A DNA stretch of 26,112 nucleotides from a virus. The DNA lies in the IMG/VR virus record IMGVR_UViG_3300032080_000020, positions 1 to 26,112 of that record. One strand, given 5' to 3'. A program made the position numbers and the translations under genes. This document shows positions 4,220-17,181 of the stretch, one piece after another (position 1 is the stretch's first letter; each line of letters begins with the position of its first letter). The notes beneath the pieces were generated by a model that made no database searches, was not told the origin of the DNA, and saw nothing but the letters and a program-made list of their open reading frames with translations.

Positions 4220-4405
4220 ATGACAGGCCAGCAGTTGAAGGCGTGGCGCAAGCGTATGCGGTTGACGATCAAAGAGGCGAGCGCGGAATTCGGGGTCTCG
4301 ACGGCCACGTTCTCGCGCTGGGAAGCCTCGAAGGAGGAACTGGTCCGCTACGTCGGACGCTGCGCCGCTGCTATCTCTATGGGTATACCGGAGATCGACG
4401 GATGA
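4220..4405 (+). CDS. Small Cro/C1-type helix-turn-helix protein (61 aa)
   Basis: The ATG at 4220 opens a product of 61 residues. Residues 3-35 form a clear Cro/C1 (XRE) helix-turn-helix: GQQLKAWRKRMRLTIKEASA, then EFGVSTATFSRWEAS, where STATFSRWE is the recognition helix. The rest (RYVGRCAAAISMGIP) is one further helix, so this is a DNA-binding domain with no effector or dimerisation domain, unlike a full repressor. The Shine-Dalgarno is poor: GAGG lies 13 bases upstream. A TTG at 4202 is an alternative start. It heads a chain of eight four-base-overlapping genes and may autoregulate them. Confidence 0.7.
   Translation: MTGQQLKAWRKRMRLTIKEASAEFGVSTATFSRWEASKEELVRYVGRCAAAISMGIPEIDG
4372..4383 (+). 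repeat. 12-base direct repeat, copy 2 (TATCTCTATGGG)
   Basis: This is the second exact copy of the 12-mer at 4179-4190. It lies inside the 3' end of the helix-turn-helix gene, in codons for Ile-Ser-Met-Gly, so coding constraint alone could explain it. Confidence 0.3.
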
Positions 4406-4620
4406 GCTTCGAGCCAATCGTTAGTGCTGGAGCGGATAGCTACTGGTGGCAGAAGAAGGCCGGCGGCCATATTGCGCGGGGTAGCGTCCAAGACATGCGT
4501 GTGGCGGCCATGAACGGCGCCGTCGCCTTTGGCGCAACATATGGCAAGATCGACATGGAGTTCGATGCGCTGAGGTGGAAGTTCGAGGGTGATCACGATT
4601 GGCGGGAGGTCCGAGGGTGA
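4402..4620 (+). CDS. Small unknown phage protein (72 aa)
   Basis: ATG 4402 overlaps the preceding stop (ATGA). The product of 72 residues begins MSFEPIVSAGADSYWWQKKA and is rich in aromatic residues, with WW at 15-16 and a C-terminal FEGDHDWREVRG. Charged and aromatic residues alternate, suggesting a compact mixed fold, but no family is recognised. A longer frame is open upstream but would run antiparallel in sense to the helix-turn-helix reading frame, so the overlapping ATG is the better start. Confidence 0.6.
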   Translation: MSFEPIVSAGADSYWWQKKAGGHIARGSVQDMRVAAMNGAVAFGATYGKIDMEFDALRWKFEGDHDWREVRG

Positions 4621-4778
4621 GTGGCGCTCAACCAATCTTCAAAACCATCACAGCGCCAGGCTTTCGGGCCAGGACAATGTCAGAGGCGGCGTATCGCCGA
4701 GCCTGCGCCAGGGCGAATGAGGCGATAAGGCAAGCGGTGGCCAACCCGCCACCGTTCCCGCCGGAGGTGAAGGGATGA
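4617..4778 (+). CDS. Small unknown phage protein (53 aa), GTG start
   Basis: GTG 4617 overlaps the previous stop by four bases and opens a product of 53 residues: MSGAQPIFKTITAPGFRART, then a basic helix (EAAYRRACARANEAIRQAV, about residues 23-41) and a Pro-rich end. The size is near the limit for calling a gene. The support is the unbroken chain of four-base overlaps on both sides. No function is suggested by the sequence. Confidence 0.5.
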   Translation: MSGAQPIFKTITAPGFRARTMSEAAYRRACARANEAIRQAVANPPPFPPEVKG

Positions 4779-4951
4779 GTGAACCCGAAAGGCCGCACCC
4801 GCTTGATGCTCTGGTTGTAGCGGCCGGCCCGGAGCGCGTTGCCGAATTGCTTTGCGACGCCTTCGAGCGAGCGATTTCCGGGCCAGACGGTGATTATCTT
4901 CTTGCGGGATGGATTAAGCGAGCGTCCAAAGCAGCGGAGATCAGGGGATGA
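4775..4951 (+). CDS. Small unknown phage protein (58 aa)
   Basis: ATG 4775 overlaps the stop before it, and GGAGG (4762-4766) provides a ribosome binding site within the upstream gene. The product has 58 residues and a helical look (LDALVVAAGPERVAELLCDA at 10-29, then FERAISGPDGDYLLAGWIKR). It ends AAEIRG. No family is recognised. It ends in another ATGA overlap. Confidence 0.55.
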   Translation: MSEPERPHPLDALVVAAGPERVAELLCDAFERAISGPDGDYLLAGWIKRASKAAEIRG

Positions 4952-5136
4952 GCACCAACCACATCGCCCGATCCGCTAGCGACCGCGATCCTACCTGGGA
5001 AGTCTGGTTTGTAGAACGCTCCGGCCTCAACGTCATGACGACTGGCCCCTGGTATGGTGGCAAGTTCGGACCACGCGAGTTTTGCGAGGCTGAGGCGGAC
5101 CGATTGAACGCCCTCAAGAACGTAGAGGATGGATGA
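4948..5136 (+). CDS. Small unknown phage protein (62 aa)
   Basis: The start ATG 4948 overlaps the previous stop, with AGGGG just upstream. The 62-residue product contains two likely beta strands (WEVWFVERSG, about 17-26, and VMTTGPWYGGKFG, 29-41), followed by a helix (REFCEAEADRLNALKNVEDG). The pattern of a short sheet and a helix ending in 'EADRLNAL' is common in small phage proteins. I cannot give it a function. Confidence 0.6.
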   Translation: MSTNHIARSASDRDPTWEVWFVERSGLNVMTTGPWYGGKFGPREFCEAEADRLNALKNVEDG

Positions 5137-5225
5137 TGACCATTCAGGAAAAGATGCTCGCGCTCCTCGAAAGCGGAGCCGCACGCAACATGGCTGAGGC
5201 CTACGCGATGGCGGGTGGACGATGA
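5133..5225 (+). CDS. Very short gene (30 aa), probable helix
   Basis: Between two overlapping neighbours lies a frame of only 30 codons: MMTIQEKMLALLESGAARNM followed by AEAYAMAGGR. ATG 5133 gives the ATGA overlap; ATG 5136 would also work, and a GAGG at 5125-5128 lies upstream of both. Both ends overlap their neighbours by four bases, which argues for translation even at this size. The peptide should fold as one or two amphipathic helices. It may be a real micro-protein or merely a coupling element. Confidence 0.45.
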   Translation: MMTIQEKMLALLESGAARNMAEAYAMAGGR

Positions 5226-5398
5226 GCGAGAAGCCAACCGAAGAGAGCGTCAATGGGCTCCTGAAATCCGCCTTCAGCAAGCTACCAGAAGTCGGCGATC
5301 GTTGCGTGATCGACGGCGTGACGCTGGTGTTTCGCCGAATGGACGGCAGATCTCAGATCTGGACCGGGGTAACGCCAGACGAGGATCTGCTGCGATGA
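5222..5398 (+). CDS. Small unknown phage protein (58 aa)
   Basis: ATG 5222 overlaps the stop of the 30-codon gene. The product has 58 residues: a helical start (EESVNGLLKSAFSKLPEVGD), then a beta hairpin-like part (CVIDGVTLVFRRMDGRSQIW, residues 28-47) and an acidic tail. A longer frame is open in the same phase of the next gene, but the overlap pattern fixes this one. No family is recognised. Confidence 0.55.
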   Translation: MSEKPTEESVNGLLKSAFSKLPEVGDRCVIDGVTLVFRRMDGRSQIWTGVTPDEDLLR

Positions 5399-5646
5399 GC
5401 GAGACCAAGACCGAAGCGGCCAGTCAAGAGCCGTACGAATGGACAGCAGCAGACTGGCCAGACCCCATGCAAGAAGTGCGCGACAAGGCAGCTGCCGGCG
5501 ACCAGATTGCGGCGTTGATCGTCGAGCGCGTGGACAAGGCGACGAATGCGGTTTTGGCTGACGTTCTACCGAAGTGGGAAGCGCAATTTATGGAGGGTAG
5601 CCCTTACTGCGCCGGCGGCCTCTCCGACTTGCTCGCGCAGGACTGA
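5395..5646 (+). CDS. Unknown acidic phage protein (83 aa)
   Basis: This is the last gene of the chain of eight. ATG 5395 overlaps the previous stop and yields 83 residues rather than the longer open frame. The product is acidic and mostly helical (MQEVRDKAAAGDQIAALIVE, then RVDKATNAVLADVLPKWEAQ), with a Gly-rich end (GSPYCAGGLSDLLAQD). No domain is recognised. After it the overlap chain stops and a 30-base gap with a hairpin follows. Confidence 0.6.
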   Translation: MSETKTEAASQEPYEWTAADWPDPMQEVRDKAAAGDQIAALIVERVDKATNAVLADVLPKWEAQFMEGSPYCAGGLSDLLAQD

Positions 5647-5660
5647 GCGCCCCTAACCCA

Positions 5661-5676
5661 GCGCTATCCTAAGCGC
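5661..5676 (+). promoter_or_regulatory. Hairpin abutting a start codon
   Basis: GCGCT (5661-5665) pairs with AGCGC (5672-5676) around ATCCTA. The 3' arm touches the ATG at 5677, so a folded transcript could hinder initiation of this gene. The gene has no clear Shine-Dalgarno of its own. Confidence 0.3.
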
Positions 5677-5940
5677 ATGGACCAGCAGAGCCAGTACCTA
5701 GCCCAAGCCCTCCGCGCGATGCAGGAGGGACCGCAGGCCCCGCCTCAGATGAACCCGCAGGCGATGGGCCTTGGCCGTATGCAGCCGGGCCAGATGGGCC
5801 AACAGCCCGGCCAGCCGCAAGGCCCCAACGCGCCGCGCCCGTCGATCGGCGACAACCTGCAACAGGCGTGGGGCAATCTCCAAGGTGCGCCGGGCCGCGT
5901 CCAGGGGAGCATCATGGGGCTGGGGAGCCTGTTCAAGTAG
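5677..5940 (+). CDS. Pro/Gln/Met/Gly-rich small protein, likely virion-associated
   Basis: The 87-residue product is highly biased in composition (PQMNPQAMGLGRMQPGQMGQ and similar over residues 20-55) and ends in a hydrophobic Gly-rich segment (GSIMGLGSLFK). Its N-terminus SQYLAQALRAMQE (5-17) matches SQYLTNALQQMQE (27-39) of the SleB-domain virion protein at 18602-20635, nine of thirteen identical. This suggests a shared docking or packaging segment, so I infer a minor virion or assembly protein. The gene converges with the reverse-strand acetyltransferase and overlaps its end by eight bases. Confidence 0.6.
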   Translation: MDQQSQYLAQALRAMQEGPQAPPQMNPQAMGLGRMQPGQMGQQPGQPQGPNAPRPSIGDNLQQAWGNLQGAPGRVQGSIMGLGSLFK

Positions 5941-6730
5941 CCCAGCAGTCGGGAACCCAGTAGGCCTCGCGCATGTCGGGTTTGAACGCCTCCGCCACGT
6001 AGGACTGAACGGCCTCGGGCGCGGCGGGCAGGGGGCGCACCACCTCGCCGTCTGTGAAGCCCACGACCGCATAGCCCGCGGACGACGCCGTCAGCACGAA
6101 TCGAGGCCGCTCAGCACGCCACTCATGCGGGCCTTCGGTCGCCGCGACCTCCTGAAGTCGGGAGTAGTTGGCTAGCAGGTAGTCGACCGCGAAATCCCAC
6201 CATGGGACACCGGGCGAGCGCTTGCCGACCTCACGTGCTGGAACGCCGGCCACGATCGAATAGGGCTCGACACGGAAGCGGACGACCGCATTGGCGCCGA
6301 CCACACATCCATCGCCCAACGATGCGCCTGGCAGAACCCGGGCGCCGGACGATATCACGACTCCATTGCCGACCGAGATGGCCGGAGCCTCCCGCATACC
6401 CATGTCAATCGACGGGTCAACGAAGGGCCTGAGACACGAGAGGCTGATGTTCACCGGCAGTTCGTGGGTGTGTTCGGCCCGACGCATGACCTCCGACGTC
6501 AGGGCGAAGTCGCACCATCGGCCGACCGTGGCGAGGCAACCGGCGAAGCCGTGTGGCGGACTCAGCATCGTCAAGCGATCCGCGCACGAGAGCGAGCCAC
6601 CGCCCAGGTCGATATAGGCCGTCTGCGTCAGGAAAATCCGCAAATCGTAGTGGCTGAAGAACCGCGTCAAGCGCTCCTCGTGGCTGGGGACGGAGGCGAA
6701 TTTCAGGAGAAAGCGACGGTCTTGGTTCAT
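5933..6730 (-). CDS. Hexapeptide-repeat (left-handed beta-helix) acetyltransferase
   Basis: This is one of only two reverse-strand genes seen. The start at 6730 (MNQDRRFLLKFASVPSHEER) gives 265 residues; the frame is open for 24 codons further. Residues 117-166 carry imperfect hexapeptide repeats (ISVGNGVVISSGARVLPGAS, LGDGCVVGANAVVR), followed by YSIVAGVPAREVGKR (157-171), the classic end of CatB/Vat-type xenobiotic and sugar O-acetyltransferases. HTHELP (88-93) may hold the catalytic His. The C-terminal 80 residues are an extra domain I do not recognise. It probably transfers acetyl to a surface sugar or small molecule. Its orientation against the late operon marks it as a 'moron'-like cargo gene, and receptor modification or exclusion is inferred. 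Confidence 0.8.
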   Translation of the reverse strand: MNQDRRFLLKFASVPSHEERLTRFFSHYDLRIFLTQTAYIDLGGGSLSCADRLTMLSPPHGFAGCLATVGRWCDFALTSEVMRRAEHTHELPVNISLSCLRPFVDPSIDMGMREAPAISVGNGVVISSGARVLPGASLGDGCVVGANAVVRFRVEPYSIVAGVPAREVGKRSPGVPWWDFAVDYLLANYSRLQEVAATEGPHEWRAERPRFVLTASSAGYAVVGFTDGEVVRPLPAAPEAVQSYVAEAFKPDMREAYWVPDCWAT

Positions 6731-6813
6731 ACCCAAGCCTAACCAATTAGCGCCGCCCTGAGGAGCCCCCGCGCCCGTCGATACTGATGGGGCAGGGAGC
6801 AAAGTCAGGTTCG

Positions 6814-7107
6814 ATGCGAGAGCGCTACGTCTATCGGAACGGTGAGTTGGTGAACGTGATGGACCTCGAGTTCGAGGAATCCAAGCGCTCGCCCCTCGGC
6901 GCGCCGATGATCATCTCCGACAACATGGCGCCTATCCGCTCGATGGCGGACGGCAAGATGTACGACAGCAAGTCGTCCTACGAGCGCGGTGTTCGCGCCA
7001 CGGGTTGCCGCGTCGTCGGAAACGACCGCCTCGAAAGCACCACGACCGCAGTCCCTCGCGCTGGCCACGACATCAAGCGGGCCATCGACCAACTGAAAGC
7101 TGGCTGA
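6814..7107 (+). CDS. Conserved small phage protein preceding scaffold
   Basis: ATG 6814 (MRERYVYRNGELVNVMDLEF) is preferred over the upstream in-frame ATG at 6787, because related phage proteins, as I recall them, begin with such an 'RYVYRNGxLV' segment. Neither start has a good Shine-Dalgarno. The product has 97 residues with a middle PMIISDNMAPIRSMADGKMY and DSKSSYERGVRATGCRVVGN. Proteins of this type recur beside portal and scaffold genes of podoviruses, but I know of no assigned function. The gene is divergent from the acetyltransferase and followed 10 bases later by the scaffold gene. Confidence 0.65.
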   Translation: MRERYVYRNGELVNVMDLEFEESKRSPLGAPMIISDNMAPIRSMADGKMYDSKSSYERGVRATGCRVVGNDRLESTTTAVPRAGHDIKRAIDQLKAG

Positions 7108-7117
7108 GGGGCCGACC

Positions 7118-8227
7118 ATGAGTGAGATGAGCCTTCGGGACACACTGACCGCAGCGATGAAGGGCTCGGAGGAGATCGCTCCGCCGGCTGAGATCACCGC
7201 CCCGGAACCGATCGCGGAGGCTGCGCCGTCTATCAAGGACGAGCCCAAGCCCGAAGACAACAAGCTGGCCCCGGACGGCGCGCGAGAACGCGACGAACAG
7301 GGCAAGTTCAAAGCCGCTGGCGACAGGCCGGCCGCACCCGTTTCAGAGCCCGCCGTGGTGGCGGAAGCGAACCCTCAGCCGGAAACCCCGGTCGAGCCCA
7401 TTCGCGTCCCGCCTTCGCTGCCCGCCGCCTTGAAAGCCAAGTTCGCTGAACTGTCGCCTGAGTGGAGGGAAGCCTTCCACAAGCGCGACGAGGATGTGAA
7501 TTCGGCCAAGGCTCAGTGGGACGTGAAAGCCGCGCGGCTCAACCGCTATGACGAGATCCTGGCGCCTCATAAGGACGCTTGGGCCGTGCAAGGCCTGGAA
7601 GACCACCAGGCTGTCGCACGTCTGGTCGCTGCTGAGAAGGTCCTCAGAGAGACCCCTGCCCAAGGCATCCTCTATCTGGCGCAATCGTATGGCGTCGACC
7701 TTCGACAGCTCGTCGGACAGCCCGGAGCACAGGCCCAGCCGCAGGCGCAAGCCGCGACAGCCGATCCGCGCCTGAACGACCTCCTGACGACGGTCCAGAC
7801 CCTGCAAGAACGCTTGGACCAGCAAACGCAGTCCGCTTCCCAGGCCAGCCTCGCACAGGCGCAAGCCACGATCACCAGTTTCGCCAACGACCCGGCCAAT
7901 CTCTACTTCGAGAACGTCAAAGACGACGTGGCCCTGTTGCTGGAGTCCGGACGGGCCTCGACCCTGAAGGACGCTTACGAGATGGCGATTTGGGCCAATC
8001 CTGAAACGCGCCCTCTGCTGATCAGCGCTCAAGCCGCCGAACAGCAAGCCGCCACGCAGGCCAAGGCCAAGGAAGAGGCCGCGAGGGCGAAAGCCCAGCA
8101 AGCCAAGGCGTCGAGCGGGTCTGTCACCGGAGCCCCAACACCAGGCGCAGCGCCGCCGGTGGCTCCTAAAGGCAGCCTTCGAGAGGAGCTGGTAGCCGCC
8201 CGACAGCAAGTCATGGGCGCAGTCTAG
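7118..8227 (+). CDS. Putative capsid scaffolding protein
   Basis: The 369-residue product has an acidic, Pro-rich disordered N-terminus (about 18-100) with the short motif ERDEQGKFKA (57-66). A helical core includes ALKAKFAELSPEWREAFHKR (104-123). Gln/Ala-rich coiled-coil segments follow (about 216-255 and 303-332), and the C-terminus ends EELVAARQQVMGAV. Composition, size and its place 21 bases before the coat gene are typical of podovirus scaffolds, which co-assemble with coat protein and leave before or during packaging. The start has a clear GAGGGG six bases upstream. No protease motif is seen inside it. Confidence 0.75.
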   Translation: MSEMSLRDTLTAAMKGSEEIAPPAEITAPEPIAEAAPSIKDEPKPEDNKLAPDGARERDEQGKFKAAGDRPAAPVSEPAVVAEANPQPETPVEPIRVPPSLPAALKAKFAELSPEWREAFHKRDEDVNSAKAQWDVKAARLNRYDEILAPHKDAWAVQGLEDHQAVARLVAAEKVLRETPAQGILYLAQSYGVDLRQLVGQPGAQAQPQAQAATADPRLNDLLTTVQTLQERLDQQTQSASQASLAQAQATITSFANDPANLYFENVKDDVALLLESGRASTLKDAYEMAIWANPETRPLLISAQAAEQQAATQAKAKEEAARAKAQQAKASSGSVTGAPTPGAAPPVAPKGSLREELVAARQQVMGAV

Positions 8228-8248
8228 CTCTAGAAAGACAGGACTATC

Positions 8249-9220
8249 ATGGCCAGCCCCGGCCTTTCGGAAATCGTCACCACCACCCTGCGCAACCGCT
8301 CGGGCGTGCTGGCTGACAACATGTCGAAGAACAACGCGCTCCTGTACCGTCTGGACAAGCGCGGCAAGGTGAAGCCGGTCTCCGGCGGTCGCACGATCGT
8401 CCAGGAACTGGAATACGCCGAGAACTCGACCTACCAGCGTTACAGCGGCTACGAGCTGCTGAACGTGTCGCCGTCCGACGTCATCAGCGCCGCTGAGTAC
8501 GACTGGAAACAGGCTTCGGTCGCCGTCACCATCTCTGGCCTGGAGCAATACCAGAACAGCGGCGAAGACGCGATCATCGACCTGCTGGAAAGCCGCATCA
8601 ACAACGCCGAAAAGACGATGCGCAACAACCTGTCGGCCGACATGTACTCGGACGGCACGGCGTCTTCGGGCAAGCAGATCGGCGGCCTGCAACTGCTCGT
8701 GGCTGACGTTCCCACCTCCGGCACGGTCGGCGGCATCAACCGCGCTTCCTATACCTTCTGGCGCAACCAGGCGTTCTCGGCGACCACGGACGGCGGCTCG
8801 GCGGCTTCGACGGCCAACATCCAGCGGTACATGAACACGCTGTACCAACGGACGACCCGTCAAACCGACAAGGTCGATCTGATCATCGCCGATACGAACT
8901 ACTACAACTTCTACCTGAACAGCCTCCAGGCCATCCAGCGCATCACCAGCGACGAGATGGCTCAGGCCGGCTTCCAGAGCCTGAAGTACATGGGCGCCGA
9001 CGTGGTGTTCGATGGTGGCATCGGCGGCGGTTGCCCGACGAACCACATGTACTTCCTGAACACCGACTACCTGATGTGGCGTCCGCACCGGGACCGCAAC
9101 ATGGTCCCGAGCGGTGACGTCCGTTCGATCAACCAGGACGCCTCGGTCAACCTGATCCTCTTCATGGGGAACATGACCTCGTCGAACTGCCAGCTCCAGG
9201 GCGTGATCTTCCAGACCTGA
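8249..9220 (+). CDS. Major capsid protein (HK97-type fold inferred)
   Basis: The 323-residue product starts MASPGLSEIVTTTLRNRSGV. It has the long N-terminal strand/helix region (RGKVKPVSGGRTIVQELEYA), the long central helix (DLLESRINNAEKTMRNNLSA, about 111-130) and a beta-rich C-terminal half (YMGADVVFDGG, MYFLNTDYLMWRP). This matches coat proteins of scaffold-using podoviruses. It is shorter than P22 coat (430), so no inserted domain is expected. Codon use looks unusually regular and C-ending, as expected of a very highly expressed gene. A hairpin follows the stop. Confidence 0.85.
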   Translation: MASPGLSEIVTTTLRNRSGVLADNMSKNNALLYRLDKRGKVKPVSGGRTIVQELEYAENSTYQRYSGYELLNVSPSDVISAAEYDWKQASVAVTISGLEQYQNSGEDAIIDLLESRINNAEKTMRNNLSADMYSDGTASSGKQIGGLQLLVADVPTSGTVGGINRASYTFWRNQAFSATTDGGSAASTANIQRYMNTLYQRTTRQTDKVDLIIADTNYYNFYLNSLQAIQRITSDEMAQAGFQSLKYMGADVVFDGGIGGGCPTNHMYFLNTDYLMWRPHRDRNMVPSGDVRSINQDASVNLILFMGNMTSSNCQLQGVIFQT

Positions 9221-9228
9221 CGCCGATC

Positions 9229-9254
9229 GAGGGCGGGCAATCCCGCTCGCCCTC
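9229..9254 (+). promoter_or_regulatory. Strong hairpin after the capsid gene
   Basis: GAGGGCGGGC (9229-9238) pairs with GCTCGCCCTC (9245-9254), ten base pairs with one G-U, around AATCCC. It begins eight bases after the capsid stop and has no T-run. It could stabilise the capsid message end, pause transcription or mark a processing site. It does not cover the Shine-Dalgarno (AGGAGAG) of the next gene. Confidence 0.55.
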
Positions 9255-9278
9255 AAACCTACGAGAGGAGAGCCTTCG

Positions 9279-9569
9279 ATGGCTTCGACTTCTTCGGTCG
9301 TTTTCGCGACCACTCCCGTTGCCGGCGTCGATCTGGACAGCAAGTCCTCGACCCCGGCGTTCAAGCTGCTCACTCCGGTCCTGGCGATCGACGGCCGCAA
9401 GCACGTCTACGTGCGGGCCTCCGAAGCGCTCGGCTCGGCTTCCACGATTTCGATCCGCTCGCTCGGCTCGGCGTCGTCGGACGCGGGCTCGGGTGGCTAC
9501 GACTGCAACACGACCGGCGGCGTCGCCTCCGGCCAGTGCTTCTGGGCTCGCAAAAGCTCGATCGCCTAA
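9279..9569 (+). CDS. Candidate capsid decoration/stabilisation protein
   Basis: This 96-residue product directly follows the capsid gene with a strong Shine-Dalgarno (AGGAGAG). It is Ser/Ala/Gly/Thr-rich and looks all-beta: SSVVFATTPVAGVDLDSKSS, FKLLTPVLAIDGRKHVYVRA, ASTISIRSLG. It ends CFWARKSSIA and contains two Cys near the C-terminus. Size, composition and place fit head decoration proteins, but no family motif is recognised, so this is inference from context. A terminator-like hairpin follows, so it is probably co-transcribed with the capsid gene at high level. Confidence 0.55.
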   Translation: MASTSSVVFATTPVAGVDLDSKSSTPAFKLLTPVLAIDGRKHVYVRASEALGSASTISIRSLGSASSDAGSGGYDCNTTGGVASGQCFWARKSSIA

Positions 9570-9575
9570 CACCTA

Positions 9576-9612
9576 GCCGGGACGTCATTCACGAGGCGTT
9601 CCGGCCTCTTTT
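9576..9612 (+). terminator. Probable intrinsic terminator after capsid/decoration genes
   Basis: GCCGGGACG (9576-9584) pairs with CGTTCCGGC (9597-9605), nine base pairs with one G-U, around a 12-base loop. CTCTTTTC follows directly. Stem plus T-rich tail fits a modest Rho-independent terminator seven bases after the 96-residue gene, which would lower expression of everything from the fibre gene onward. Confidence 0.5.
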
Positions 9613-9618
9613 CGAGGC
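9604..9618 (+). promoter_or_regulatory. Hairpin masking the fibre gene's ribosome binding site
   Basis: GCCTC (9604-9608) pairs with GAGGC (9614-9618) around TTTTC. The 3' arm contains GAGG (9614-9617), the only Shine-Dalgarno for ATG 9625. GAGGC also occurs at 9593-9597 and can pair with the same GCCTC, so alternative folds could expose or hide the site. Confidence 0.4.
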
Positions 9619-9624
9619 GCATAG

Positions 9625-10629
9625 ATGGCCAGCAAGACTTACGCGAACCTGACGGCGGTGACGACGACCGCTGATACGGATCTGGTGGCGGTCTATCCCA
9701 CCGGGGGTCCACTGAAAGTCATCGCCTGGGTCAACTTGGTGGCCAAGCTGGCGACCGACCTCATTCCGACCTTTCTGCGCCGCGATCAGAACCTCGCGGA
9801 TCTAAACAGCGCAGGCGTGGCTCGCAACAACCTCGGTCTCGGCAACGTAGCGGTGCTGACGACAGGCACAACGAGCGGTACGGTCGCGGTGCTCGGGACG
9901 GGCGGTAAGACGCCTATTTCGACGCTCCCCGGCGGCTATCTGGCCAAGTCCGCGACTTACTCGGCGGTGCTGGCCGACAACGGCAAGCTGATCGACTGCA
10001 CTGGGACATTCACCCTCACTCTGCCCAGCGCGGGCACCGTTGGAGAGACCTACTCAATTGACGTCCGCAACAGCGGAACAGGCACGATCACCGTCGCTCC
10101 ACCTTCCGGCCTGATCGACGATGCGTCGTCGGTGACGGTGGAGCCCGGCTCGACCCGGACTATCGTGACGGACGCGACGGACTACTACACGACCCCGGAA
10201 GGCCCTCAGGGCTGGACCCTGCTCAGCACGCAGGCGACCACCTCCGGCACATCGAAGATCTTCCAGCCGCCGCAATCGTGGGCTGAGATCATGTTTGAGT
10301 TCGATGGTGTGGCGGCCAACACCGGCGCTTCAATCACCATGGCCGTCAGCAGCGACGGCGTATCCTACTCGGCAGCGGTGACGCCCATCGGCGCTACGAG
10401 CGGCGGCGTCATGGGGCACATTGTTATGCCGCACTACAGCAGCACGGTTTGCTCAGTCGGAGTGACGATAGGCGCTGATGCGGCGGCTCCCGTGATGGCG
10501 GTAACCAACTCCGCCTACAGCAGCCAAAACCTTTCGGTGAGGACCGCCTCTGGCGTGAAGTATGTGAGCTTCGTTCCGGTGTTGGGCGAAGCCTACACGG
10601 CTGGCGCAATCCGGATGTACGGGCGCTAG
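9625..10629 (+). CDS. Fibre-like virion protein (tail fibre or head fibre)
   Basis: The 334-residue product carries FLRRDQNLADLNSAGVARNN-LGLG (residues 50-73), the 'NLxDLxxxxxARxNLGLG' segment common in phage tail fibres. A beta-rich domain follows (about 108-190, including GTFTLTLPSAGTVGETYSID). The C-terminal domain (about 205-334) looks like a beta-sandwich and ends GAIRMYGR. It would attach to the particle through its N-terminus and contact the host with the C-terminus. Its place straight after capsid and decoration genes, far from the tail genes, makes a head fibre (like the phi29 gp8.5 arrangement) a fair alternative. Confidence 0.7.
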   Translation: MASKTYANLTAVTTTADTDLVAVYPTGGPLKVIAWVNLVAKLATDLIPTFLRRDQNLADLNSAGVARNNLGLGNVAVLTTGTTSGTVAVLGTGGKTPISTLPGGYLAKSATYSAVLADNGKLIDCTGTFTLTLPSAGTVGETYSIDVRNSGTGTITVAPPSGLIDDASSVTVEPGSTRTIVTDATDYYTTPEGPQGWTLLSTQATTSGTSKIFQPPQSWAEIMFEFDGVAANTGASITMAVSSDGVSYSAAVTPIGATSGGVMGHIVMPHYSSTVCSVGVTIGADAAAPVMAVTNSAYSSQNLSVRTASGVKYVSFVPVLGEAYTAGAIRMYGR

Positions 10630-10666: not shown

Positions 10667-10684
10667 CTCCCATGCTTATGGGAG
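10667..10684 (+). promoter_or_regulatory. Hairpin masking a ribosome binding site
   Basis: CTCCCAT (10667-10673) pairs perfectly with ATGGGAG (10678-10684) around GCTT. The 3' arm holds GGGAG, the Shine-Dalgarno for ATG 10693. The gene downstream heads the long coupled operon, so this fold could set translation of the whole series. The two ATGs inside the hairpin (10672 and 10678) are unlikely starts. Confidence 0.5.
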
Positions 10685-10692
10685 CAAGCATC

Positions 10693-11043
10693 ATGCAATC
10701 AACACCGATGGAAGCGGCTGAGCAGGCCGCCGATGAGGTCCGGCGCATTGTCGCGCGGGCCATGTTCGACGCCCAGGCCGAAGAGGGCGAGAACTTCGAC
10801 GCTCTGACCGAGGAAGACCAGGCGCAGTTCATGTTCCTGGCCGACGCAGCCATTCGGGGCTATCGCGGCCATCTGCACCAGCAGGGCTACAAGATCACGC
10901 CTCCAGGGGCCTTCGTGGCGCCTGCGAGCGAACAGGAGGCCCGCGCCATGGCCTCGGTCGCGGCGCAGTACCTCAGCAGCCCTAGAGGTAAGTCGAAGCT
11001 GATCGCCACGCCGGGCCTAATCGTTCCGGGTCGGATGCAGTGA
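10693..11043 (+). CDS. Unknown helical phage protein (116 aa)
   Basis: ATG 10693 (MQSTPMEAAEQAADEVRRIV) is chosen because GGGAG lies eight bases upstream. Earlier in-frame ATGs at 10672 and 10678 fall inside the hairpin. The first 70 residues are acidic and helical (ALTEEDQAQFMFLADAAIRG), and the remainder is less regular, ending in PGLIVPGRMQ. No family is recognised. Its stop overlaps the GTG of the glycosyltransferase gene, so it leads the operon. A small virion or assembly protein is likely from context only. Confidence 0.6.
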   Translation: MQSTPMEAAEQAADEVRRIVARAMFDAQAEEGENFDALTEEDQAQFMFLADAAIRGYRGHLHQQGYKITPPGAFVAPASEQEARAMASVAAQYLSSPRGKSKLIATPGLIVPGRMQ

Positions 11044-12506
11044 GCATTCACTTCGTCATGGTGCGCGTCGGGGAGCGCTACGGCCCTGAGTACGTCGCCG
11101 TCCTAGCCGACATGATCGCCCGCAACGCCTCGAACCTGGAGAGCTTCTCCATCTGGTGCGTGACCGATCGGCCGGAGGAGCTTCCCGAGGGCGTGGGGTT
11201 CATCCAGGCGGATACGAGCATCCCGCCGAGTTGGTGGGCGAAGTGTCAGCTCTTCTCGTCGGCCATGCCGTGGGAAGCGGGCGACCGCGTCGTCTACTTC
11301 GACCTCGATGTGGCGATCACGGGGCGCCTCGAGGATCTCACGGAAACGGACGGGATCATTCAGGACTGGCATTGGCCGTGCTGGAACTCCTCGGTCATGT
11401 CATGGCGGCATGGCGAGCACAGGGCCGTCTGGGATGATCTGACGCCCGAGGTAATGAGCCGCCCCTCGACCGACCTGGCGCCCTATCTGCCGAAAGGCCA
11501 GGTCAACGGCGGCGACCAAGAGCACATCACCCGCCTCGGAGGCTGGAAGACTTTTCCGGCTGCGTGGTTCATTTCCTACCGCGACGCTAGGTCTTGGCCG
11601 CCCAACGACAGCAAGGCCGTCATCTTCCACGGTGATCCCAAGCCGCACGAGGTAACGAACGGTTGGGTTCCGAACGTCTGGAAGGTCGGCGGCTTCACGT
11701 CTCTTCCGGTCATGGGCGGCGTCAACGTCACGCACGAGGCGCTGCTGGACAACGTCCGGGCCAGCGTTCTACGGGATCTGCCTTGGTTCACCGGCTTTGG
11801 CCCCCACAAGCGCCTGGCCTGCGTGGTTGGTGGCGCTCCTTCCGTCCGCGACGACATCGGCAAGATCCGCGCCCAGCAGAAGCGCGGCGCGCGGATCATC
11901 ACCGTCAACAACACCTGGCGGCTGATGGTCGAGAACGGGATCATGCCAGACGTCCATGTGATGTTGGACGCGAGGGCCGAGAACGCGGCGTTCCTGAAGG
12001 GCGCGCCCAAGGGCATCCGATACCTGATCGCCAGCCAGTGCCACCCCGACGTGTTTGAGGCGCTGAAGGATCACGAGGTGATCGTCTGGCACAACGGCTT
12101 CGGAGACAACGCGGCGCTCCGCGAGGTTCTTCAGCCCTGGTGGAATGAAGGCCCAAGCCAGCGGCCCTGCGTGCTTGTGCCTGGCGGCGGAACGGTGGGC
12201 CTCCGCTCGCTCTGGCTCTGTGCCCTGTCAGGCTTCAAGACCATCCACATGTACGGCTTCGACAGCTCGTACGAGGGCGACAAGCACCACGCCTACGCCC
12301 AGCCGCTCAATGACACCGATCGGGTCATGGAGGTCACGATGGGCGGCAAAAACTATCGCGCAGCGCCGTGGATGGTTCGCCAGACGGAAGAGGTCAGAAC
12401 CCACTACAGCGACCTGAAGCGCGAGGGCGTGGCGCTGCACGTGCATGGCCGCGGCCTGTTGCCCGACGTCTTCCGGTCGATCCGGGAAGAGGAGCGGGCG
12501 GCGTGA
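11040..12506 (+). CDS. Glycosyltransferase fused to a DUF115-like domain
   Basis: The 488-residue product (GTG start, GTGA overlap) has two parts. Residues 1-235 look like a GT-A glycosyltransferase: an N-terminal Rossmann-like strand (IHFVMVRVG), the metal-binding DxD in VVYFDLDVAI (Asp88, Asp90) and a late HGDPKP (197-202), as in small phage and family-8-like transferases. Residues 258-475 resemble DUF115/Maf-type proteins, with VVGGAPSV (262-269), VHVMLDAR (305-312), PGGGTVGL (381-388) and MYGFDSSY (404-411). DUF115 members act on nonulosonic acids or flagellin in bacteria. I infer sugar transfer onto a virion protein or host glycan. It is coupled to the methyltransferase gene that follows. 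Confidence 0.75.
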   Translation: MSIHFVMVRVGERYGPEYVAVLADMIARNASNLESFSIWCVTDRPEELPEGVGFIQADTSIPPSWWAKCQLFSSAMPWEAGDRVVYFDLDVAITGRLEDLTETDGIIQDWHWPCWNSSVMSWRHGEHRAVWDDLTPEVMSRPSTDLAPYLPKGQVNGGDQEHITRLGGWKTFPAAWFISYRDARSWPPNDSKAVIFHGDPKPHEVTNGWVPNVWKVGGFTSLPVMGGVNVTHEALLDNVRASVLRDLPWFTGFGPHKRLACVVGGAPSVRDDIGKIRAQQKRGARIITVNNTWRLMVENGIMPDVHVMLDARAENAAFLKGAPKGIRYLIASQCHPDVFEALKDHEVIVWHNGFGDNAALREVLQPWWNEGPSQRPCVLVPGGGTVGLRSLWLCALSGFKTIHMYGFDSSYEGDKHHAYAQPLNDTDRVMEVTMGGKNYRAAPWMVRQTEEVRTHYSDLKREGVALHVHGRGLLPDVFRSIREEERAA

Positions 12507-13132
12507 TCGCGCAGTATTCGGGCTGGTGGTGGCCTGACAGCGATATTCACGCACGGCCGGTCATCATGCGCGATCGTGATCTGGCAATCGCTCACCTGCT
12601 CTCGCACGTCGAGGGGCGCGATCTGATCGTCCAAGCCGGCGCCAACGTCGGTACCTATCCGATCGCGCTGGCCGACCACTTTCAGAGCGTCATCACGGCC
12701 GAGCCGGACCCGGAAAACGCCGAGTGCCTGACGCGCAATCTCAAGGCCCGCGACAGTCTCAACCGCGTGACGGCCTACACCGGCGCGTTCGGCGAGACCG
12801 AAGGCGGCTGCAAGGTCGTGGAGGTCGAGAAGAACAACTGCGGCGCCCATCGCATCGCCGTTGGTGGGCCGATTCAAGTCCTGACCATCGACAGCCTCGG
12901 CCTGCCGGCCTGTGACGCGATCTGGCTCGATATCGAGGGCTCCGAACTGCTGGCCCTGAAGGGCGCGGTTCAGACGATCGACAGGTTCAGCCCCGTCATC
13001 GCCTGCGAGGAAAAGGGCTTGGGCGAGGCCTTCAATATCCAATCCGGGGAGCTTGAACGGTTCCTCGGCTTCTACGGCTACAGCCAGGTCGATCAGATCG
13101 GCCGCGACAAGGTTTTCAGGAGAGACCGATGA
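12503..13132 (+). CDS. FkbM-type methyltransferase
   Basis: GTG 12503 overlaps the glycosyltransferase stop (GTGA) and gives 209 residues (MIAQYSGWWWPDSDIHARPV). The SAM-binding motif I is VQAGANVGTYP (43-53), followed by the acidic motif ITAEPDP (64-70) and the FkbM hallmark IWLDIEGSELLALKGA (140-155). FkbM enzymes O-methylate sugars and other small or glycan substrates. Directly after a glycosyltransferase, it most likely caps the transferred sugar by methylation. Gln44 where Asp is more usual in motif I is a small oddity. It overlaps the next virion gene, so it is made with the structural proteins. Confidence 0.85.
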   Translation: MIAQYSGWWWPDSDIHARPVIMRDRDLAIAHLLSHVEGRDLIVQAGANVGTYPIALADHFQSVITAEPDPENAECLTRNLKARDSLNRVTAYTGAFGETEGGCKVVEVEKNNCGAHRIAVGGPIQVLTIDSLGLPACDAIWLDIEGSELLALKGAVQTIDRFSPVIACEEKGLGEAFNIQSGELERFLGFYGYSQVDQIGRDKVFRRDR

Positions 13133-13719
13133 CCCTCGACGACACGCCCGACTTCGACGCTGGAGCCGACAAGGGCGATAATGCCCGCCCTCGCTTCTTC
13201 ACCGAGCCCGTCAAGCACAACTACCGTTCGGACACCGAAGGCCGGCCCGTCTTCGAGGACCGCGAGTTTGTGACGATCCTGGTCCCCGGCGACCGAAAGA
13301 CCGAGTGGAGCGGCTACGTCACGGAGGTTCACAAGCGCCGCTGGCCGCGTGAGTACGCCGCCTTCAAAGCCGGCCTGGAGACGCCGACCGAAGGCACGCC
13401 TCTGAAGGAATGGGCGGTCATCACGCGGTCTCAGGTCGAGGAGCTGCGCTTCGCCCACATCCTGACGGTCGAACAACTGTCGGCCCTGCCCGACGACGCC
13501 CTGAACCGGTCTGTGTCCATGGGCGGCTTTGCCCTTCGCGACAAGGCCAAGCGCTGGTTGGAGGCGCAAGCCGGCAACTCACAGACCGAAGCGCTCGCGG
13601 CTGAGAACGACCGCCAGCGTGAGATTATCGCGGACATGGAGCGCAAGTACGCCGCCCTCGCCGAGAGCGTGGCGCAACTGACCGCTCAGCAGGGCCAGCG
13701 AGCCGGAGAGACCGCATGA
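13129..13719 (+). CDS. Virion-operon protein with coiled-coil C-terminus
   Basis: The 196-residue product starts at ATG 13129, overlapping the previous stop. Residues 41-75 (VFEDREFVTILVPGDRKTEW, then KRRWPREYAAFKAG) and 98-145 (ITRSQVEELRFAHILTVEQL...GFALRDKAKRWL) recur in proteins I have seen in podovirus head cassettes, without known function. The second part looks like a helix-hairpin-helix. Residues 150-190 are a probable coiled coil (ALAAENDRQREIIADMERKY). Likely a head-completion or assembly factor; this rests on context. Confidence 0.6.
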   Translation: MTLDDTPDFDAGADKGDNARPRFFTEPVKHNYRSDTEGRPVFEDREFVTILVPGDRKTEWSGYVTEVHKRRWPREYAAFKAGLETPTEGTPLKEWAVITRSQVEELRFAHILTVEQLSALPDDALNRSVSMGGFALRDKAKRWLEAQAGNSQTEALAAENDRQREIIADMERKYAALAESVAQLTAQQGQRAGETA

Positions 13720-14112: not shown

Positions 14113-14817
14113 ATGACCATGCTGTCGATCATCCAGGACACGGCCGACCGGATGGGCATCCCCCGTCCGACCTCGGTCATTGGCTCGACCGACACGCAGG
14201 TTCGACAGCTACTGGCGCTCCTCAACGAGGAAGGGGAGGATCTTGCCAAGCGCGGCCTGTGGCAGTCGCTGACCAAGGAACACACCTTCGTCACCACGGC
14301 CACGCCGACCCAGACTGACACGCCAGTCCCAGACGATTTGGACCGGTTCATCGACGACAGTTTCTTCAACCGCACCCAGGTCCGAAAACTCCGCGGCCCA
14401 ATCACGCCTCAGGCGTGGCAGGCGTTCCAAGCTCAACCGCTCTACAACCTCGTCTATCTGGCCTTCCGCGAGCGTGACGGCGCGTTCCTGATCACCCCGA
14501 CCCCGCCGGCCGGCAACACGATCGCTTACGAGTACGTCAGCCTCAATTGGGCGCGTTCGAGCGCAGGCGTGGAGAAGGCCAGTTTCACGGCCGACGACGA
14601 CACCTCGTACCTGCCCGAAGATCTGATGAAGTCTGGCCTTCGTTGGCGCTGGAAGCAGGCCAAGGGTCTTCCCTACGGCGAGGACATGGAGACCTATGAA
14701 CGGTCGGTCCTGAAGCAACTCGGCCACGATGGTGGCGCGCGCGCCCTCAACATCACGGGCCAGGAACTGATCTTCCCCTACGGCGTGAACCTGCCGGAAG
14801 GCGGCTTTGGCCTGTGA
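14113..14817 (+). CDS. Head-tail connector, P22 gp4-like tail accessory factor
   Basis: The 234-residue product is mostly helical at the N-terminus (IIQDTADRMGIPRPTSVIGS, then DTQVRQLLALLNEEGEDLAK). A beta-rich middle follows (AFLITPTPPAGNTIAYEYVS), then a helical stretch (LMKSGLRWRWKQAKGLPYGE). This architecture, and the fact that the gp10-like gene comes next but one, fits the P22 gp4-like adaptor family that binds below the portal. It lacks muralytic motifs. The call rests on layout and pattern memory, not on a single diagnostic motif. Confidence 0.65.
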   Translation: MTMLSIIQDTADRMGIPRPTSVIGSTDTQVRQLLALLNEEGEDLAKRGLWQSLTKEHTFVTTATPTQTDTPVPDDLDRFIDDSFFNRTQVRKLRGPITPQAWQAFQAQPLYNLVYLAFRERDGAFLITPTPPAGNTIAYEYVSLNWARSSAGVEKASFTADDDTSYLPEDLMKSGLRWRWKQAKGLPYGEDMETYERSVLKQLGHDGGARALNITGQELIFPYGVNLPEGGFGL

Positions 14818-15041: not shown

Positions 15042-16669
15042 GGCAGGCGGTCCAACAGAACAGGTCCAGGGGCCAGAAAGCCGTCGCCAGGGCTGTCCCG
15101 GCGCCCGTTGGAGGGTGGGACACCGAAAGCCCGCTGGCCAACATGCCCAAGCAAAACGCGGTGATCCTGGACAACTGGATTCCGCGTGCCGGCTACGTCG
15201 AGCTTCGTCGTGGATACCGTGGCCACGTCAACGGAACCTCCGATCCCGTCGAGGCGATCATTCCTTGGCGAGGCGATGCTTCGGGAGACAAGATCTTCGC
15301 GTGCGCGGGAACCGACATCTACGACGTGACCACGGCCGGCCCGCTTGGTTCGGCGGTCTACGCGAGCGCGACAAGCGCAAGGTGGCGATCGACCCAGTTC
15401 GCCAACGACGCTGGAGCCTTCGCCATCGCCGTCAATGGGGTCGATACCCCGCTCAAGTACGACGGCACGAGCTTCACGACGACCGCGATTACCGGCTCGT
15501 CCGGCTCAATCACGCTGGACCCGCAAGACCTTGACCATGTGATGGCGCACAAGCGCCGCCTGTTCTTCACCGAGAAGGGCACGCTGAGGGTCTGGTATCT
15601 CGCGGTACTGGCCATCGCCGGGGCATCTGAGCTTCTCGACCTCGGCGGGATCTTCGACAAGGGCGGCCATCTGATGGCCGAAGGGACGTGGTCGCTAGAC
15701 GGCGGACAGGGCATGGACGACATGGCCGTGTTCGTCACCTCGGAGGGCCAACTTGCCGTCTACCAGGGCACGGACCCTTCGGACGCGGACAACTGGTCGC
15801 TGGTGGGCGTCTACAGCGTTGGTAAGCCTGTAGGCGACAACTGCCTGATCAAGTGGGGCTCGGACCTGGCGGTTATCACCCAGGACGGCGTCATCCCGCT
15901 TTCACAAGCCCTGAACAAGGACCGAGCCCAGCAGAAGGAAATCGCGATCACCGCCAAGATCGCGACAGGGTTCGCCGAGGCGTGGGGCAGCTATGGATCG
16001 CTCTATGGCTGGTCGGGCTTGACCTATTCCGGGCGAGGTTCGCTGGCGATTTTCAACGTGCCCACGGCTGAGCTGACGAGCGCGGTGCAGTTCGTCCAGT
16101 CGATCCAGACCGGGGCGTGGTGCAGGTTTACCGGCCTGAATGCGGTCTGTTGGGAAACGGCGAACGATGAGATCTATTTCGGAGGCGAGGGCGGGGTCTA
16201 TCAGTGGGACATCACCGCTTCTGACAATGGCGAAACGATCGTCGCCGATGTGAAGCCGGCCTTCAACAACTTCGGGTCAAACACCGAAAAGCAGTTCACC
16301 ATGATCCGCCCGCTGATCAAGGCGCCGGCGATCATCAATCCGGCCCTCGAAGTCCTGGCGGACTACCGCGAGGCCGTTCCCACCGCGACAACCACGATGG
16401 TGACGCCGGATAACCTGACCAGTAGCGACGGCATTCGCTACGACTGGTCCAGCGCCACGGCTGTCGGATATGTCGCGACGCCCCGGATGCGGATCTCGGT
16501 TCTTGGCCTGAACGACGCCAACCTGATCGCGATCGACGTCGATCTGTCGGACCTTCTCATCGACACGGCTGGCGGCGACTTCATCCTGATCTATCCCGAT
16601 CTGCCGTTCGACATCGAGGTTCGGCTGATTGGCTTCGATGTGATGTTCATCCCTGGGGGGCAGCTTTGA
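15038..16669 (+). CDS. P22 gp10-like tail hub / DNA stabilisation protein
   Basis: The 543-residue product overlaps the previous stop (ATGA). After a basic N-terminus it has VGGWDTESPLANMPKQNAVI (24-43), then LDNWIPRAGYVELRRGY (44-60), the typical opening of these phage tail proteins. Repeated blade-like strand patterns follow (KIFACAGTDIYDVTT, FAIAVNGVDTPLKYDG, DMAVFVTSEGQLAVYQGTDP, EIYFGGEGGVYQWDI), pointing to a beta-propeller as in P22 gp10, which closes the portal vertex. The C-terminus is a separate beta domain ending FIPGGQL. Length compares well with gp10 (about 470). Confidence 0.75.
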   Translation: MRQAVQQNRSRGQKAVARAVPAPVGGWDTESPLANMPKQNAVILDNWIPRAGYVELRRGYRGHVNGTSDPVEAIIPWRGDASGDKIFACAGTDIYDVTTAGPLGSAVYASATSARWRSTQFANDAGAFAIAVNGVDTPLKYDGTSFTTTAITGSSGSITLDPQDLDHVMAHKRRLFFTEKGTLRVWYLAVLAIAGASELLDLGGIFDKGGHLMAEGTWSLDGGQGMDDMAVFVTSEGQLAVYQGTDPSDADNWSLVGVYSVGKPVGDNCLIKWGSDLAVITQDGVIPLSQALNKDRAQQKEIAITAKIATGFAEAWGSYGSLYGWSGLTYSGRGSLAIFNVPTAELTSAVQFVQSIQTGAWCRFTGLNAVCWETANDEIYFGGEGGVYQWDITASDNGETIVADVKPAFNNFGSNTEKQFTMIRPLIKAPAIINPALEVLADYREAVPTATTTMVTPDNLTSSDGIRYDWSSATAVGYVATPRMRISVLGLNDANLIAIDVDLSDLLIDTAGGDFILIYPDLPFDIEVRLIGFDVMFIPGGQL

Positions 16670-17181
16670 GCCGGATACTCGTCGGCATGAATGACTTTGT
16701 CGCCCACTGGACAGCCGAGCGGATACCGTTCGTCGGCGTGGGCGACAACTTCGGTCCGTGTTCAACAATGGGGGTGCTGGATTCGGAAGGCCTGATGGCG
16801 GCCGGAGCTGTCTACCACGCCTATCGTCCCGCATTCCGAGGCCTTGAGATTTCCTTTGCGATGCGGCCCGGCTTCTACCTGTCTCGGAGCGCCATTAGCG
16901 CGCTGCTGAGGTACCCTTTCGCAGAGCTAAATTGTGTCCGTGTAACCGCCGTGACACCGCTCAGAGCGACCAGCACCCGGCAGTTCCTTGAAAAGCTAGG
17001 CTTCAAGAGGGAGGGCGTGCTTCGGCGCGCTTTCGGGACCGATGATGCGGTTGTCTACGGAATGCTTGCGAAAGAATGGGCGCGAAGCCTGTTCAACGTC
17101 GAACGTCGGCGAGATGTCCCCCCGCTGCGCGCGGCTGGCCTAAGACATGGGCAAGTCCACCAAGACCATAGCGCCGCCTGA
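16666..17181 (+). CDS. GNAT-like acetyltransferase-fold phage protein
   Basis: TTG 16666 overlaps the previous stop (TTGA) and is preceded by a G-run. ATG 16687 is an alternative. The product of 171 residues ends its fold with KLGFKREGVLRRAFG (110-124) and DDAVVYGMLAKEW (126-138), the standard C-terminal GNAT pattern. TSTRQFLEKLGF is the acetyl-CoA-proximal helix. The canonical pyrophosphate-binding loop (Q/RxxGxG/A) is not obvious, so activity is uncertain. Similar GNAT-like proteins appear in P22-like tail clusters. The last 35 bases overlap the next gene. Confidence 0.7.
   Translation: MSRILVGMNDFVAHWTAERIPFVGVGDNFGPCSTMGVLDSEGLMAAGAVYHAYRPAFRGLEISFAMRPGFYLSRSAISALLRYPFAELNCVRVTAVTPLRATSTRQFLEKLGFKREGVLRRAFGTDDAVVYGMLAKEWARSLFNVERRRDVPPLRAAGLRHGQVHQDHSAA

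Follow-up and report, generated by a model that had tools for sequence, protein, structure and literature searches.

The DNA analysed in this study (the window) is the IMG/VR record IMGVR_UViG_3300032080_000020, a stretch of 26,112 bases, and the phage from which it comes is known only as this fragment of approximately 26 kb. It is an uncultured, tailed, Mx8-like phage, with distant cultured relatives from Myxococcus, Rhizobium, Bradyrhizobium and Ruegeria. The window encodes a terminase, a major capsid protein, an SU10-type adaptor and a portal protein (23570-25705). The genes of main interest lie between those of the capsid protein and the adaptor (Table 1), and include a two-domain enzyme, named here GT115 (488 aa), and a methyltransferase of the FkbM family (209 aa).

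Table 1. Genes and other features of the region between the capsid and adaptor genes
Feature	Position	Strand	Remarks
Major capsid protein	8249..9220	+	phrog_9953 major head protein, E 3.5e-120
g96, probable capsid decoration protein	9279..9569	+	immediately 3' of capsid gene; relatives match phrog_29386 "virion structural protein"
Terminator-like hairpin, between decoration gene and cargo genes	9576..9605	+	11-pair stem, T-rich tail
Fibre-like protein, in cargo slot	9625..10629	+	weak PHROG tail fibre match, E 1e-5
g123, small protein overlapping GT115 start	10672..11043	+	homologues precede GT115 in some relatives (L008, L086, L090, L152)
GT115: GT8-like GT-A domain (residues 1-219) and DUF115/PF01973 Maf-like domain (residues 231-475)	11040..12506	+	
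FkbM-family SAM methyltransferase, predicted O-methyl capping	12503..13132	+	PF05050, TIGR01444, PDB 2py6
g196, conserved head-region gene, far edge of slot	13129..13719	+	phrog_20268, E 8e-26; homologues in Mx8 and RHph_I3_18
SU10-type adaptor (head-tail connector)	14113..14817	+	PF24175, E 7e-11

Four-base overlaps join g123 to GT115 (11040-11043, GTGA), GT115 to the FkbM gene (12503-12506, GTGA) and the latter to g196 (13129-13132, ATGA). An earlier note on this DNA had described these overlaps, and its coordinates, reading frames and motifs for the enzymes (D88/D90, HGDPKP, VVGGAPSV and PGGGTVGL) likewise proved to be correct. The same note had proposed that the enzymes are coupled to assembly genes on both sides and co-translated with them. 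The downstream half of this statement holds; upstream, the overlapping g123 belongs to no known family (no Pfam or PHROG match in the profile search), and the hairpin separates the genes of the capsid and decoration proteins from those of the enzymes. Terminator-like sites follow g96 in 25 of 67 GT-positive relatives, as against 2.5% in shuffled sequences, which suggests that the enzymes may be produced at lower levels than the capsid proteins. Furthermore, the gap between GT115 and the FkbM gene has a median length of 179 bases in relatives, the tight overlaps being particular to this genome. Given this lack of conservation and the terminator-like site on the upstream side, the co-translation argument is weak.

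The identities that had been assigned to the enzymes from their motifs (GT-A, DUF115 and FkbM) were confirmed by profile searches and structure prediction. GT115 contains FDLD at position 87 (D88/D90), HGDPKP at 197, VVGGAPSV at 262 and PGGGTVGL at 381. Its DUF115 half matches PF01973 (E 1e-19; 71.3 bits versus the Pfam gathering cut-off of 34.6) and its glycosyltransferase half matches phrog_1962 (E 9e-17). A structure was modelled with AlphaFold (13 relatives in the alignment, mean pLDDT 86) and compared with known structures by VIA-align. For residues 231-475, the comparison gave the Maf flagellin glycosyltransferase 5mu5 (Z 21.5 over 217 residues, 2.8 A); for residues 1-219, it gave LgtC 1g9r (Z 17.4 over 199 residues, 3.0 A) and glycogenin (Z 17.2). 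In the same model, the second half also resembles the pyrophosphokinase MptE (8sd5, Z 15.7). The profile of GT115 ranked PDB sequences similarly, with 5mu5 at E 2e-8, glycogenin at E 8e-5 and MptE at 0.03. Profiles and predicted structure thus identify GT115 as a GT8-like GT-A domain fused to a DUF115/PF01973 domain, although the chemistry of the DUF115 half is not certain, because its nearest relatives in the PDB include MptE.

Known Maf enzymes (Magnetospirillum 5mu5 and Clostridium botulinum CbMaf; pfam01973) are composed of a Rossmann-like domain, the Maf_flag10 domain and a helical C-terminal domain (PMC11339370). GT115 shares with them only the central domain, in which the GxGPS, PD and G-D...H motifs align; the N-terminal Rossmann-like and C-terminal helical domains are missing, a GT8-like domain is present instead, and the gene belongs to the head operon of a phage and is not associated with flagellin. 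The other half has the GT-A fold and DxD motif of GT8-type enzymes (LgtC, glycogenin, GlyE) and of PHROG 1962, and PmgQ of phage P1 is a weak relative. Among the 13 relatives, D88 of the metal-binding DxD motif is invariant and D90 nearly so. The sequence FHGDPKP aligns with FLGQTKPW of glycogenin (GT8 motif HxxGxxKPW), with H and G invariant, KP nearly invariant and the Trp absent; GT115 differs from the GT8-type enzymes in this missing residue and in its fusion to DUF115.

The product of the downstream gene is an FkbM-family methyltransferase by its sequence, scoring above both curated cut-offs (PF05050, E 3e-11, 44 bits, cut-off 22.7; TIGR01444, 60.5 bits, cut-off 37.7), with the PDB relative 2py6 at E 1e-8. 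The SAM-binding motif and D-x-E-G-x-E of the family (TIGR01444, PF05050, 2py6; PHROG 8156) are kept in this short, stand-alone phage form. The DUF115 and FkbM motifs are invariant among relatives. Homologues are full-length at 31-67% identity and dN/dS is low for both genes (approximately 0.03-0.24 in the non-identical pairs tested), which indicates purifying selection and argues that our reading of these genes is not due to chance. Both proteins are predicted to be soluble, as no membrane-type segment was found in either (maximum 19-residue hydropathy of 1.36 and 1.27).

We surveyed the fused copies in the best 80 of 404 viral loci, more distant contexts being outside this set. All 79 copies that share a fragment with a capsid gene lie downstream of it, and the fused copies precede g196 and the adaptor gene wherever these are present on the fragment. 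In most of the relatives surveyed, a g96-type decoration gene precedes the fused enzyme. An FkbM match accompanies 63 of these 79 copies, located after the enzyme gene in 62 cases and before it in one (L084). In a comparison of surveyed loci, the methyltransferase was found solely with the fused enzyme (57/70 loci with it, 0/50 without it), although some relatives carry the fused enzyme alone; under control for phylogeny the association is not significant, with 2.1 pairs agreeing and none opposing, which is too few pairs. Twelve matches were obtained in a bacterial genome collection, all of them MAG contigs and several bearing capsid genes.

The co-occurrence survey proposed in the earlier note also showed that the module is often missing from relatives with similar virion genes. 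It is absent from the cultured relatives Mx8, RHph_I3_18 and ppBjS10J-1 and from approximately 50 surveyed loci, in which the distance between the capsid gene and g196 is typically 0.1-1 kb, leaving space for one decoration-type gene or none. On the capsid tree there have been at least nine changes of state for the fused enzyme and at least 11 for any DUF115 protein. In view of these repeated changes and absences, the region between the capsid and adaptor genes is, judging by gene content, an optional cargo slot subject to repeated gain or loss. We therefore rejected an essential assembly factor as an explanation of the module, which is missing from all of these relatives; its optional nature argues against such a role, but not against a putative role in surface decoration.

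The arrangement of the genes within the slot varies. In L163, the glycosyltransferase, DUF115 and FkbM domains form a single ORF of 702 aa, which is the strongest individual indication that the three domains may act on one substrate, whereas in L042 DUF115 and the glycosyltransferase are separate genes in reversed order. Other occupants of the slot are DUF115 alone, fibre-like and pectate-lyase-like proteins and a hexapeptide transferase; the last three of these cargoes are surface-related as well. The slot of L022 (3139-4509) and of L165 (537-2009) contains a fusion of DUF115 with a Methyltransf_25-type domain, a second pairing of transferase and methyltransferase. In L080 (3326-5553), a hexapeptide-repeat transferase lies beside a DUF115 protein whose N-terminal half, approximately 230 residues long, is of no recognised family. 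The first 73 residues of the fibre-like protein of the window resemble the N-terminus encoded by a gene of L002 (2238-2456) located upstream of its capsid gene, as though a fibre sharing this anchor had been relocated or copied.

We found no cultured phage with the full fusion among 50,697 deposited phage records, in which the DUF115 half had no match at all, and the literature search yielded no paper on the combination of GT8-DUF115 with FkbM. The FkbM search, on the other hand, led to Tetraselmis viridis virus S20, an unrelated phage with an HK97-type capsid gene (PF05065). Downstream of that gene lie sialyltransferase-like phrog_4603 genes, a GT-D glycosyltransferase, a methyltransferase, a GT2 enzyme, FkbM (phrog_8156) and a phrog_1962 glycosyltransferase. 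In comparison with the module of the window, the enzymes of S20 are encoded by separate genes and include additional glycosyltransferase families, and their function is likewise predicted. Because the same enzyme families adjoin the capsid gene of an unrelated phage, this cluster argues, by analogy, for virion-directed enzymes as an independent case. The S20 cluster is large (4388-9971 of HQ632857.1 20315-36920, our locus L177) and several of its genes are annotated merely as hypothetical; SI1 gave the same FkbM match as S20.

The earlier note had suggested a virion glycosylation and capping system. The fixed capsid-side position (79/79 in the best 80 of 404 loci), the L163 fusion and the S20 case all strengthen this suggestion, which is supported in part; no acceptor or product is visible in the sequence. 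We consider it probable that the module is a virion-decorating glycosylation and O-methyl-capping cassette, carried in the optional slot between the capsid and adaptor genes. The enzyme activities, the order of the transferases, the sugars and the acceptor in the following scheme are what we infer. Late in infection, the two transferase domains of GT115 would work in sequence on a protein of the virion surface: one would attach a sugar to Ser/Thr, which the other would then extend (either domain may be the first). The GT8 half would take a UDP-sugar and the DUF115 half a nucleotide-activated sugar of the host, which would be a CMP-nonulosonate if this half is Maf-like; Maf enzymes attach O-glycans to Ser/Thr of flagellin (PMC11339370). 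FkbM would then O-methylate the glycan, producing a cap.

The likeliest acceptor would be g96, whose gene lies just upstream; next in line would be the capsid protein and the adjacent fibre-like protein. The candidacy of g96 stems from its gene position, from its fold and from a conserved Ser-rich loop (residues 63-73). The top PDB matches of its predicted structure are capsid decoration and head-fibre proteins, at Z values of only 5.6-7.1. The loop, a candidate glycan acceptor site that we regard only as a lead, contains D-x-G-S in 19 of 21 sequences from FkbM-positive phages and in 1 of 13 from FkbM-negative ones, and the Ser/Thr content of g96 is 25.9% in phages with both enzymes, 21.6% in those with the glycosyltransferase but not FkbM, and 19.2% in those without the glycosyltransferase; the sample is small and confounded by descent. 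We rejected the type of decoration protein as proof of the acceptor: GT115 co-occurs with g96-type decoration in 67 of 75 raw cases, yet phylogeny-controlled independent pairs revealed no co-variation of decoration type with the cassette (p about 1). For this reason, g96 as the acceptor is a guess. The full scheme, in which a bifunctional GT8-Maf enzyme and FkbM would place an O-methyl-capped glycan on the Ser-rich loop of the decoration protein across a large, uncultured group of Mx8-like phages, is put forward tentatively, and the odds are against it. Were it true, it would represent a protein O-glycosylation machine akin to that of flagellin glycosylation, dedicated to virions.

Other targets of the enzymes have to be considered. 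They might alter the LPS, capsule or flagellin of the host late in infection, so that virions avoid debris or superinfecting phages cannot bind. Phage glycosyltransferases which alter host antigens are well known (PMC12619734), the DUF115 half is nearest to a flagellin-glycosylating enzyme, and an optional slot would suit a moron. However, the lack of membrane-type segments is not in keeping with this role, nor was any flippase or Gtr-type gene recognised in the families around the module. The partners known from gtr-type serotype conversion (membrane glycosyltransferase, flippase and bactoprenol glycosyltransferase) were likewise not recognised among the proteins scanned in the window, itself a fragment, and the enzymes found here are predicted to be soluble. 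Glycosyltransferases sited with virion genes, as expected of a phage virion glycosylation system, are what was found (79/79; best 80 of 404 loci), and this placement, together with the capsid-side cluster of S20, fits the virion better, which makes modification of the host surface rather unlikely.

The cassette could instead modify a fibre of the tail or head, for example the one encoded in the same slot just upstream, and so tune host recognition; fibre-like or pectate-lyase-like genes also occur in the slot of some relatives. Most cassette-bearing relatives have no fibre gene there, however, so that a fibre is not the general acceptor, and we judge this target to be unlikely. An action on DNA or small molecules, for example in base hypermodification or in the metabolism of nucleotide sugars, seems highly improbable; DUF115 would in that case be an MptE-like diphosphokinase. 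PF01973 does include MptE, with the structural match given above, and DNA-hypermodifying phage glycosyltransferases are known (studies cited in PMC12619734), but the profile prefers Maf over MptE, no base-modification gene was recognised among the proteins scanned in the 26-kb window, and a place beside the capsid gene and not among replication genes would be unexpected for DNA modification.

Glycosylation of tailed-phage virions has been documented mainly in mycobacteriophages, and we know of no GT8-DUF115 fusion or FkbM coupling in those systems. In mycobacteriophages, capsid and tail-tube subunits bear glycans (Freeman et al. 2023, as described in PMC12619734 and PMC11256854), and for Che8 and Rita, which belong to a different phage group, glycosylation of virion proteins by phage-encoded glycosyltransferases has likewise been proposed or shown (Freeman et al. 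2023, from the same accounts). In the related F1 mycobacteriophage Maravista, the glycosyltransferases are encoded near the 3' end of the genome (PMC11256854). Each enzyme family described here is thus already known, as is virion glycosylation in mycobacteriophages (PMC11256854, PMC12619734). Neither the deposited phage genomes nor the literature searched yielded the fusion of GT8 with DUF115, the FkbM partner or the fixed capsid-side slot. A distinct architecture occupies one capsid-side site in many environmental Mx8-like phages and takes a different form in an unrelated phage. If the cassette does decorate virions, glycosylation of phage particles would be more widespread than thought, with a possible bearing on capsid display and on the stability of environmental phages.

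Additional observations concern other parts of the window. A GNAT-type acyltransferase (16666-17181, phrog_4470) is encoded within the virion operon; relatives without the cassette have counterparts of it too. Just 5' of the terminase gene, the product of 1397-2017 strongly matches PHROG 513 "transposase", yet contains HELYH, a motif of HExxH-type metallopeptidases, and the PHROG name may be wrong. Finally, the gene order of this phage is rearranged: in Mx8 and RHph_I3_18 the portal gene comes after that of the terminase, but here it is located 3' of the genes for tail and lysis functions.
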